Assembly (NCBI GenBank): GCA_028874765.1
Contig: JAPPIE010000099.1
Location: 35,117-78,915 of the forward strand
Length of the DNA: 43,799 nucleotides
Direction of reading: 5' to 3'
DNA from: Gemmatimonadota bacterium
GTDB taxonomy: Bacteria > Latescibacterota > UBA2968
The notes beneath the pieces are model-generated. The model did not search any database, was not told where the DNA came from, and saw nothing but the letters and a program-made list of their open reading frames with translations. Numbering within the stretch: the stretch's first letter is position 1; each line of letters opens with the position of its first letter. Shown here piece after piece: positions 17,045 through 20,828 of this stretch. A program made the position numbers and the translations under genes.

Positions 17045-18472
17045 TTATAGTTTTTGCAATGCGGTGTGGAAGGTCCAGAGACGCCATTGGGCATTGTCGA
17101 AATTTGAAAGTTTGATGCGTATTTCCGAAGGCCCAATGGGAAGTTCACATGGAATATGGTCAATGGCGAATCCATTATCATGTTGCCCCGCGTGGATCTC
17201 TGCGCCATTGAGCCACACGCGGATCCAGTCGTCATACCCCACAACGAGAGTGTAAGCACCCGCTTCAGGCGGAGTGATCTGTCCCACCGCATAAGCGGAG
17301 ACATTGACGGGTTGGGTGCCCACATTGGTGCGTTTGCGACCTCGGAAGTAGCGCGTGAAATCGCACCAGCCGCGTTCTGAATCCGTTTGAATGGGCATAG
17401 AAAATGTGGCGGACGCACTCTCGCCCATGTAGATATCAAAATCAGCAGTGTGCGTGTTGGGCCAATCGACGATGGAATTCTCTGCCCATTCAGGCCGATT
17501 GAAATCCTCGCGTGTATTGCAGCGAAAAGGTCCCGCGATTTGCCATTGATCTGGCGTGAGAATAGCTGGCGGGTCAACGGGATTGACATAGGCGTAGATA
17601 ACGCTTTCCACATCATTCCCACGAGACCCGAAACGAATAATTGCCGAGTGATCAAACCATATTGGATCGGGACCAAAAAAGCGGTACATCACCCCTTCGT
17701 AACCAGAGCCTCCCGCTGTGTGTTCAGTGCTCCGATGAATGTGCGGCGCACCGACCCAGTCGGTTTGTACCTTCCATATCCCAAAGCTCATATTAAAAAT
17801 ATCCTCTCCACCAATGCCGCGCAGGACATGGGGATCGCTTTCCCCATCGAGTAACCACAGGTCTCCACCGGTATGATACCAAGCATCAGCGCGATCTCTT
17901 ACGACCACGCCTTTGACCATGCCCGCGATAAACCCATTGCCCGAATAGTCAGCCATCAGCATACTACCCAGCGATTGAGCGGGATATTCGCCTCGGTGCG
18001 TGACATGGAGGCGCAATGGGGTTAATTCGGTATTGTCATACGACGACCAGTCGGCCATAAACCAGAGCGGAATAGCGCGACCACTATTATTCGTGATTTC
18101 GAGACGCAGCGATTTGAAAGGGATGGGCAAATAACAATTGAGCGCGTTTTTGGGAAGGATTTTGATAGCCGCGCTATCAATGGGATAAATATCGTGTTCA
18201 AAGAGAATGGCAAAAAAACGAGCGATGGGGAGATCGACAGTGGGATCGTCCTCCCCATCGCAATAGAGGCGGAGTTGCAAATCGTGGATGGGATCGCGCG
18301 CATCGCCTTCGCGCTTATACCCATAAGTGAGCCACCAGTGATGGATGCACCCTGGACCTTCTTCGTCAAAGAGAACTGCCGTTTCACCAGATGCAACATT
18401 CGGACGACGAGTAACGCGCTGGCTTTTGCCGCGAATGGGCAATTCGAGCTCTGCGTGAAAAAGGCGATTCAT
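17045..18472 (-). CDS. DUF2961 / GH172-family protein
   Basis: The protein of about 475 residues has the DUF2961 signature EGPGCIHHWWLTYGY near residue 40, PIARFFAILFEHD, and long beta-rich stretches with MADYSGNGFIAGM and YRFFGPDPIWF. A C-terminal beta-sandwich (about 380-475: GQITPPEAGAYTLVVGYDDWIRVWLNGAEI) looks like a PA14/carbohydrate-binding module. GH172 members act on alpha-D-fructofuranosides and related arabinofuranosides; most are uncharacterised. There is no signal peptide, so it is probably cytoplasmic. ATG 18472 is chosen. A TTG at 18487 overlaps the stop of the upstream small gene as TTGA and is a real alternative. The gene is third in a minus-strand nhaC, small protein, GH172 run. 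Confidence 0.85.
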   Translation of the reverse strand: MNRLFHAELELPIRGKSQRVTRRPNVASGETAVLFDEEGPGCIHHWWLTYGYKREGDARDPIHDLQLRLYCDGEDDPTVDLPIARFFAILFEHDIYPIDSAAIKILPKNALNCYLPIPFKSLRLEITNNSGRAIPLWFMADWSSYDNTELTPLRLHVTHRGEYPAQSLGSMLMADYSGNGFIAGMVKGVVVRDRADAWYHTGGDLWLLDGESDPHVLRGIGGEDIFNMSFGIWKVQTDWVGAPHIHRSTEHTAGGSGYEGVMYRFFGPDPIWFDHSAIIRFGSRGNDVESVIYAYVNPVDPPAILTPDQWQIAGPFRCNTREDFNRPEWAENSIVDWPNTHTADFDIYMGESASATFSMPIQTDSERGWCDFTRYFRGRKRTNVGTQPVNVSAYAVGQITPPEAGAYTLVVGYDDWIRVWLNGAEIHAGQHDNGFAIDHIPCELPIGPSEIRIKLSNFDNAQWRLWTFHTALQKL

Positions 18473-18483
18473 CACTGAATTTT

Positions 18484-18576
18484 TCAATCAGATTTGTGTT
18501 CAGAAGAAATAACAATAAAACCAATGATGAACAAAGTCACTATAAATGTCATAAACAGCATCATTCCAACAGGCAT
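18484..18576 (-). CDS. 30-residue single-span membrane protein
   Basis: ATG 18576 is preceded at 6 bases by a strong Shine-Dalgarno sequence (AAAGGAGA, minus strand, 18590-18583). The 30-residue product is almost all hydrophobic (PVGMMLFMTFIVTLFIIGF and on), with a short charged tail SSEHKSD. It begins 37 bases after the nhaC stop and ends where the GH172 reading frame begins. I recognise no family. Size and form recall small transporter subunits such as MetS, but no sequence match can be claimed. It may be an accessory of the NhaC antiporter. Confidence 0.6.
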   Translation of the reverse strand: MPVGMMLFMTFIVTLFIIGFIVISSEHKSD

Positions 18577-18613
18577 TATGTGTCTCCTTTCGGTGATAAT
18601 TATGGAGAATCCA

Positions 18614-20338
18614 TTACGCAGTGAAGAAAGCGACGACTGTCCAGCAGATTGCAGCCAGGCCAGCGGCAATAGAGGCTTGCGGAATTTGCGTTTTGACGTG
18701 ATCCATCAGGTCGCAACCCGTACACATAGAACTGAGAACCGTAGTATCTGAAATGGGCGAGCACTGATCGCCGTAAACGCTACCATCAATAACAGCGGCA
18801 AAACACAGCGTCATAAATAGTTCGGGGTGTGAAAGGCCATTTGCCGTTGCGACCGCCCAGGCCAATGGCATAGCCAGTGGAAAAGCCACCGCATACGTGC
18901 CCCAACTCGTACCTGTGGAAAAGGCAATCGCCATCGTGAGAAGCTGGAGCAAAACCGGCAAAATGAAATATGGAATGGTATCCCCGAGTTGCTCGACCAA
19001 AAAGATGCCCCCACCCGTTTCCTTACTGATGCCACCAATAGTAATAGCCAGCAAGAGAATAACCGAGCCGAGCACCACGCCTTTGAGACCATCGTGAAAT
19101 CCCGAGACAATATCCTTAAGCGACATGCCCTTGGCAAGAGCCATACCCACGGCTATCAGAAGTGCGATGCCAAAAGCCCATTGCACATTCGGAGATCCGC
19201 TGATGATAAAAGTCCCGATAGCAATGGCGATAAGCGCGCCCAGAGGCAGGAAAAATTCGAGAACATGCGGCGTGTAGCCTTCGGGCACATTGCTTCCCTG
19301 CAGTTCTTTGGCGCTCAAGGGATCGGCATCGTCGGCGTCGAGTTGCCCCGTCTCTCGAGAGCGCTGCATAGCTTCCTTGAGTTGCTTGCCCAAAAAGAGG
19401 GGTTTTTCAATACTGAGCAAGAACGTGCCCAACACGGCGAAAATGGCGTAGAAGCAGAAGGGAACACTCTTAAAAAAGAAGAGAAGACGGTCGGCTTCGG
19501 TAGCTAAAAAACTGACGCCAGCGACAAAAATAAAAGCCTGAACATAGCCGGGCCAGGCATTGAAAGCGAGTTGTGAGGCAATCGGTGAAGCGGTCGAATC
19601 GACGATGTACGCAAGTTCTTCGTGGCTGATTTTTTCCTCGTCGGCAATGGGTTTGACAGTTGTACCGACCAGCACCGTACTGACAGTGCCGCCCTGGAAA
19701 AAAATGACACCGAGCATCCAGGCGACGAGCTTGGCACTCTTGGGACCGCGCACAAAACGCACAGTCATAAATTCGGCAAAAGCTTGCGCTGCACCCGTGC
19801 GCGACCATATCCCCATAAGCCCACCCAGGAGCCACAAATAGAGCAATAAGATACTCGCGGCATTTGACGTTGATAATGAGGGAATTAAAACCTCGCCCGT
19901 AAAGTCATATCGCGTCAAAATAAGCGCGCCCGAAATAATACCGCCCAACAGAGCTGTAACGGGTTCTTTGGTAATCCAGCACAATAGCACGGCCACTATC
20001 GCCGGCAGCAGTGACCAGTAGCCCCAGTGGTGTTTTGCAAGAAGCTGTTTGTATTTTGTTTCTCCGTTTTCCACGAATGAGACAAATTCCTCTTTGATGG
20101 GAGGCGTTTCATTCGAGCCGTGTATCCTTGAGGGATTGAGTTCGGCTTGTTCAATCGGCACCGCATCGAAATAGGCGGGTTTGCCTCTGTAGATGTAATA
20201 CAGTTGGCCACTATCGTCTGTGAGAACGTCTAAGGTAATTTGTTCAACGGTCCATGTGGGCGGCACAGTTGACCCCACAATCCACGATACAATTATGGCA
20301 ACGACAAAAATGACAAAATTGCGAATACCAGTAGGCAT
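18614..20338 (-). CDS. nhaC: NhaC-family Na+/H+ antiporter
   Basis: The 574-residue polytopic protein shows the NhaC hallmarks [58 protein letters not shown] and the C-terminal [20 protein letters not shown]. It would exchange Na+ (or a small carboxylate) for protons at the inner membrane. ATG 20338 has an excellent ribosome site (GGAGGGAG). An unusual loop of about 80 residues after TM1 (about 25-105, with [15 protein letters not shown] and [12 protein letters not shown]) is predicted outside the membrane and is not part of ordinary NhaC. The gene is first in the operon with the small membrane protein and GH172. Confidence 0.9.
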
Positions 20339-20387
20339 ATACTCCCTCCGGAATAAGGGTACAAAAAATGCGGCGAGAAGGCGCCCC

Positions 20388-20416
20388 AAAATAAGGCGGT
20401 AAAATGCACTTGTCAA
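20388..20416 (-). promoter_or_regulatory. Putative promoter for nhaC
   Basis: On the minus strand a consensus TTGACA (20416-20411), a 17-base spacer and TATTTT (20393-20388) lie about 50 bases before ATG 20338. Confidence 0.6.
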
Positions 20417-20460
20417 TTGCTTTGACGCGGGATGAACATAGAAAAATGGGATAAAACAAG

Positions 20461-20488
20461 TTGACTTTGTACATAAGTTTGTTACATT
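20461..20488 (+). promoter_or_regulatory. Putative promoter for the zinc-ribbon gene
   Basis: TTGACT (20461-20466), a 16-base spacer and TACATT (20483-20488) drive rightward, back to back with the nhaC promoter. The stretch 20339-20592 between the divergent genes otherwise shows nothing clear. Confidence 0.55.
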
Positions 20489-20592
20489 ATCTTTAAATTT
20501 ACCCCTTGGCCATGACCACCCCTATTTATGGCCGAAAGGGTTGTGTGCATGGCGAGATTTTTTTTAAAGACGCCAGTGGCGAGGAGGGTTTT

Positions 20593-20784
20593 ATGGAGCA
20601 AGCGTTTCCACAGTGTTTGAAGTGCAACACGGGTATTTTGCTACCGCTGTCGGATTATGGGCGCGATGGGGCATCTATCATGTACAAAGCATGGGTATGC
20701 AACAATCCCAACTGCGGATTTAATTTGCGGATTGACAACGGTGAAATTAGCACGGGCCGGGATATTACCGAGTCCTACAAGTAG
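20593..20784 (+). CDS. Small zinc-ribbon protein
   Basis: The 63-residue protein has two cysteine pairs, CLKCNTG near residue 8 and CNNPNCGF near residue 36, which fit a zinc ribbon. Aromatic and charged residues lie between them. The function is unknown; similar small ribbon proteins occur as stand-alone, possibly regulatory or RNA-binding, proteins. GAGGAGG directly before ATG 20593 decides the start. An in-frame ATG at 20512 would add 27 residues but has no ribosome site. It has its own promoter and is followed by two terminators. Confidence 0.75.
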   Translation: MEQAFPQCLKCNTGILLPLSDYGRDGASIMYKAWVCNNPNCGFNLRIDNGEISTGRDITESYK

Positions 20785-20789
20785 AGCTC

Positions 20790-20828
20790 CCATTTCGGTG
20801 GGGTATTCCTCACCGAAATGGTTGTTTT
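20790..20828 (+). terminator. Strong Rho-independent terminator 1
   Basis: A 14-bp stem (CCATTTCGGTGGGG / CCTCACCGAAATGG, one G-T pair) with a short loop is followed by TTGTTTTTT. Confidence 0.85.

Follow-up and report, generated by a model that had tools for sequence, protein, structure and literature searches.

Both genome annotation and many of the protocols used in proteomics readily overlook proteins as small as 30 residues or so. Among small membrane proteins, MgtS, KdpF and AcrZ act by lateral contact with polytopic membrane proteins, MetS-type proteins (PF16951) are small single-helix proteins encoded beside a secondary transporter, and TisB, Ibs and TimP are examples of hydrophobic toxin-like peptides; the small membrane part of TRAP transporters is made of several helices. 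For the NhaC family we know of no small-protein partner, and none appeared among the papers listed by a literature search for one. That small membrane proteins can bind transporters is set out in a review (PMC10710835), for MgtS on PitA and MgtA and for AcrZ on AcrB.

Here, we analyse a small open reading frame (sORF) that lies between an NhaC-like antiporter gene and a GH172/DUF2961 gene on a 43,799-nucleotide stretch of DNA (hereafter, the window; Table 1) from an uncultured bacterium that is labelled Gemmatimonadota and belongs to Latescibacterota in the GTDB lineage. Because the frame, its ribosome site and its stop codon are conserved and its residues are under purifying selection, we consider it almost certainly a real protein-coding gene. 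We put at about 0.5 the probability that its product is a genus-restricted small membrane protein of 30–34 residues that acts laterally on a polytopic membrane protein.

Table 1 Features of the sORF locus in the window and of the corresponding loci (L numbers) in relatives.
Feature	Position	Strand	Basis or remark
sORF, 30 sense codons and stop, MPVGMMLFMTFIVTLFIIGFIVISSEHKSD	18484..18576	minus	sequence, conservation, selection
Shine–Dalgarno site AAAGGAGA	18583..18590	minus	sequence; spacing kept in relatives
NhaC-like antiporter, Na_H_antiporter PF03553, 574 aa	18614..20338	minus	37 bases upstream of sORF
Promoter-like site TTGACA-17-TATTTT before NhaC-like gene	20388..20416	minus	consensus match only
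GH172/DUF2961 protein, 475 aa	17045..18472	minus	11 bases downstream of sORF
Cassette stretches	L053:6738-7331, L054:6734-7327		between antiporter and sORF
Cassette remnant	L131:8508-8566		G014, 58–59 bases of the same sequence
GH172 remnants	L052:6871-6909, L056:6863-6930, L131:8753-8818		three relatives

The ATG of the sORF occupies positions 18576–18574 and its stop codon ends at 18484. The initial annotation had described 30 codons behind a strong ribosome site at 6-base spacing, and this is what the minus strand holds: AAAGGAGA, the six bases CACATA, then the ATG. It had also read the product as one hydrophobic span with a charged tail, in agreement with the single helix (residues 3–29, pLDDT 92) given by structure prediction, in which the N-terminal side is uncharged and the C-terminal tail, SEHK, is nearly invariant. 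Under an order-1 Markov model, an ORF of 20–60 codons with [AG]GGAG 5–9 bases before its ATG and a hydrophobic span (mean Kyte–Doolittle value of at least 2.0 over 19 residues) is expected 0.015 times per window, and the one observed is this sORF. The frame had further been said to be usually lost inside a longer spurious ORF. This is true of the window, where it sits within a 61-codon ORF with a TTG start and an open frame of 73 codons, and fails as a generalization because the open frame spans just 36–40 codons in seven of the ten genomes that carry the sORF.

Those ten genomes all belong to the genus of the window. A search of 64 genomes of the phylum (E value 0.05) found the sORF in none of 54 and in single copy in each of the other ten, which are ten of the 15 genomes of the family and ten of the 11 of the genus, with 77–97% protein identity to the copy in the window. 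The eleventh genome of the genus, G012, gave no match to the sORF or to the antiporter, and its contig with tsaD starts roughly where position 20790 lies in the window, short of the locus, so the locus was probably just not assembled. An inverted repeat precedes tsaD at window positions 20790–20821, and the G012 contig ends in that repeat.

Conservation of the ORF and of its ribosome site in relatives was proposed at the outset as the point on which the gene would stand or fall, and both are conserved in all ten genus genomes with the locus, as is the stop codon. The distance from GGAG to ATG is 7 bases in nine genomes and 8 in the tenth, and the sole length change within the frame is one whole codon (G005 and G011). 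G010 has ATT in place of the usual ATG, and an alternative ATG lies 12 bases upstream; the ribosome site has shifted along with the start, at the usual 7 bases from the new ATG. Over the first 28 codons, those free of gaps in all ten genomes, pN/pS is 0.184, a value as low as which was reached in none of 2,000 column shuffles, compared to 1.05, 8.98, 0.41, 0.43 and 1.85 in the other five frames; it is 0.203 in a subset of seven genomes. Variable columns number 10, 1 and 16 of 28 at codon positions 1, 2 and 3, respectively. This pattern of substitution indicates purifying selection on the amino acids, weaker than that on the antiporter (pN/pS of 0.066).

Outside the genus, the sORF was not recovered. 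With the E value relaxed to 10, nothing full length appeared outside the genus in 21 genomes of the order, and in 40 antiporter-bearing genomes searched at an E value of 0.5 there were weak matches only, at four places in three genomes (E values of 0.19–0.45), none of them full length. We also inspected the antiporter loci themselves, a set of 80 of which 74 lie outside the genus (a further locus, L132, was left out of the analysis). No sORF-like ORF follows the antiporter at these 74 loci within 700 bases or the available contig, which for L103 and L118 held nothing downstream to inspect. Short hydrophobic ORFs do occur downstream at eight of them (L058, L062, L098, L112, L120, L121, L128 and L130), and none was similar to the sORF when judged by eye. 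By these searches the sORF is restricted to its genus. The expectation that the same ORF would be found beside nhaC in related genomes is thus borne out within the genus, where it adjoins the antiporter in most genomes, and not beyond it; because the sORF was not found in the antiporter-bearing genomes outside the genus, the antiporter presumably works without it there.

The antiporter matches PF03553 over residues 280–568 (E value of 1.6e-31). It scores 46 against the NhaC equivalog model TIGR00931, for which the cut-off is 370, so ‘NhaC-like’ is a safer name than the nhaC first given to it: the family relationship holds, and sodium antiport is putative. For structure prediction, 29 of the 36 rows of the alignment were kept (L119, which has a stop, and L111, L117, L122, L124, L127 and L130 were left out). 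In fold, the predicted structure comes closest to MleN, YdaH, VcINDY and SiaQM, which we take to be elevator-type transporters, neighbours that serve as a guide only, as the model is of moderate confidence (pLDDT of 75). Residues 25–104 (window positions 20023–20265), outside the PF03553 match, are predicted to form beta strands between the first two helices. Antiporters at least 60% identical to that of the window occur in metagenome-assembled genomes (MAGs) labelled Latescibacterota, Gemmatimonadota, Gammaproteobacteria, Binatia, Acidobacteria and Planctomycetota (L051–L130), a spread over phyla that may reflect gene exchange between lineages.

The arrangement of the locus is compatible with a shared transcript. 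A promoter-like site precedes the NhaC-like gene, in a consensus scan that returned 11 such sites with 4.8 expected, and no terminator-like site was found on the minus strand at the boundaries between the antiporter, sORF and GH172 genes. We propose that the sORF would be translated from its own Shine–Dalgarno site, usually off a message starting before the NhaC-like gene, that the product would insert as one helix, and that lateral contact of this helix with a polytopic membrane protein would change the activity or stability of that protein. The product is probably a transporter helper or regulator in the membrane. The NhaC-like antiporter is the first candidate partner, at somewhat less than even odds, and in the form of the mechanism that we prefer the helix would lie on the scaffold of an elevator-type antiporter and either modulate its activity or shield it from degradation; the partner might also be another membrane protein, or the product might act on the membrane itself. 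Tentatively, the sORF product may be read as a novel single-helix protein, confined to this genus, that serves as a subunit or regulator of an elevator-type antiporter of the NhaC family. Should it indeed act on the antiporter, the NhaC family would gain a small-protein regulator, from a lineage that is uncultured.

Constant adjacency to the antiporter would be expected of a dedicated small subunit, and within the genus it is seen in seven of ten genomes. The sORF lies on the same strand behind the antiporter in all ten, at 37–41 bases in these seven and at 642, 938 and 2,539 bases in G010, G013 and G014. Placing the sORF in a sodium-antiporter operon, as the initial annotation did, therefore suits the genomes in which it directly follows the NhaC-like gene and not the other three, and the link to the antiporter is weaker than that annotation suggests. 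G010 and G013 share a related stretch between antiporter and sORF (91.6% alike over 594 bases), of which G014 keeps a remnant. In G013 this cassette carries a DUF4258 gene, identified there, and a small partner ORF directly upstream of the sORF, a pair that we read as toxin–antitoxin-like. In a tree of the antiporter, a single-gene tree with L062 as outgroup and without L064, in which the anchor motif was not found, G014 falls outside the other nine genomes, G010 lies near the base of those nine, and G013 is sister to G006, which has no cassette. The cassette may be old and have been lost several times, or it may have moved among strains; were it ancestral, the adjacency of sORF and antiporter would be secondary.

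These observations bear on the alternative that survives best, a small membrane protein whose partner would instead be, for example, a different transporter, a membrane protease or a respiratory complex and whose place behind the antiporter reflects the history of the locus. It would account for the persistence of the sORF at 0.6–2.5 kb from the antiporter in G010, G013 and G014 (in the last of which GH172 is gone too), for its absence from the related antiporters searched outside the genus, and for a cassette sequence common to three genomes that include the outlying G014. We nevertheless regard it as less likely than not, as the sORF keeps its place and strand behind the antiporter in all ten genomes that carry it and mostly adjoins it.

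The cassette also bears on a second alternative, that the sORF encodes a hydrophobic toxin-like peptide, comparable to type I toxins or to TimP, that acts on the membrane itself. The length and composition of the product fit, and the toxin–antitoxin-like pair lies directly upstream in G010 and G013. However, the consensus scan found no plus-strand promoter-like site at 17051–19083, and hence none near the sORF for an antisense RNA, a search of Rfam on 18300–20700 gave no family, and the strong ribosome site within an operon-like array and the near-invariant tail sit poorly with such a peptide, which we hold to be improbable.

Downstream of the sORF, the neighbouring protein matches PF11175 (DUF2961; E value of 2.9e-28); the name GH172 is that of the initial annotation. 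GH172 has been lost in G006, G009 and G014, where 20–67 bases of the gene start remain, joined in G006 and G009 by 27–29 bases of its end, and these three genomes contain only distant relatives of GH172 elsewhere. In two of these three relatives the first and last bases of the gene are fused, in the manner of an internal-deletion scar. In G006 and G009, the sORF is soon followed by a palindrome and then a run of T, which we read as a probable terminator. As the sORF is intact in all three genomes with just GH172 fragments, it does not depend on GH172. This leaves little room for a leader or coupling ORF whose translation matters for GH172 and whose product does not: the end of the sORF 11 bases before the GH172 start would suit that role, but selection on its amino acids and its integrity beside a fragmented GH172 make it very improbable. 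Finally, a chance ORF, as which something so short and over the cut-off in none of the libraries searched might pass, is scarcely credible given the Markov expectation, the conservation and the codon pattern across genomes.

For a gene of this size, the comparative evidence is unusually clean, from the residues to the ribosome site and to a start that shifts together with its site, and the sORF survives when each of its neighbours is lost or displaced. As this case shows, a few related MAGs can suffice for recognizing small genes that are confined to one lineage.

We then compared the sORF with described families. Searched alone and together with all ten members, its product gave nothing over the cut-off in Pfam or NCBIfam. 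Weak Pfam hits (Orf78, YxzE, DUF4408, ATP1G1 and others) were set aside, as they fall below the cut-off (best E value of 0.014) and resemble generic hydrophobic helices, and a profile search of the PDB returned just photosystem II protein I, at an E value of 9.

Of the known systems, MetS-type subunits share with the sORF a single helix encoded beside a secondary transporter and differ in the transporter family; membership was excluded, as PF16951 has no match over the cut-off in any of the 11 genus genomes. TRAP and elevator-type transporters with membrane partners, such as SiaQM, have a fold near that predicted for the antiporter, but their small part differs from the single helix of 30 residues described here, the contact of which with the antiporter is hypothetical.

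MgtS of Escherichia coli (31 aa; PF22865 and NF033842) is alike in length, in its single hydrophobic span and in its short charged tail, with nine ungapped identities in register over 30 positions (M1, M5, F8, M9, G19, F20, H27, K28 and D30). Scores as high against MgtS came from 28 of 20,000 segment-wise shuffles (89 of 20,000 by identities) and from 0 of 2,760 hydrophobic windows of the loci, although the chance of such a likeness is higher than the shuffles indicate because MgtS was chosen for the comparison out of many small proteins. A profile comparison gave a probability of 40%. The MgtS models have no match over the cut-off in the 11 genus genomes, and the Pfam and NCBIfam models do recognize MgtS itself, as a positive control; as they recognize MgtS but not the sORF product, we rejected membership in that family. 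The neighbours differ as well, being ydeE and mgtT in E. coli and an NhaC-like antiporter here. We therefore file the product as an orphan small membrane protein outside the Pfam, NCBIfam and PDB families searched and of a kind already known, one that by analogy perhaps works like MgtS.
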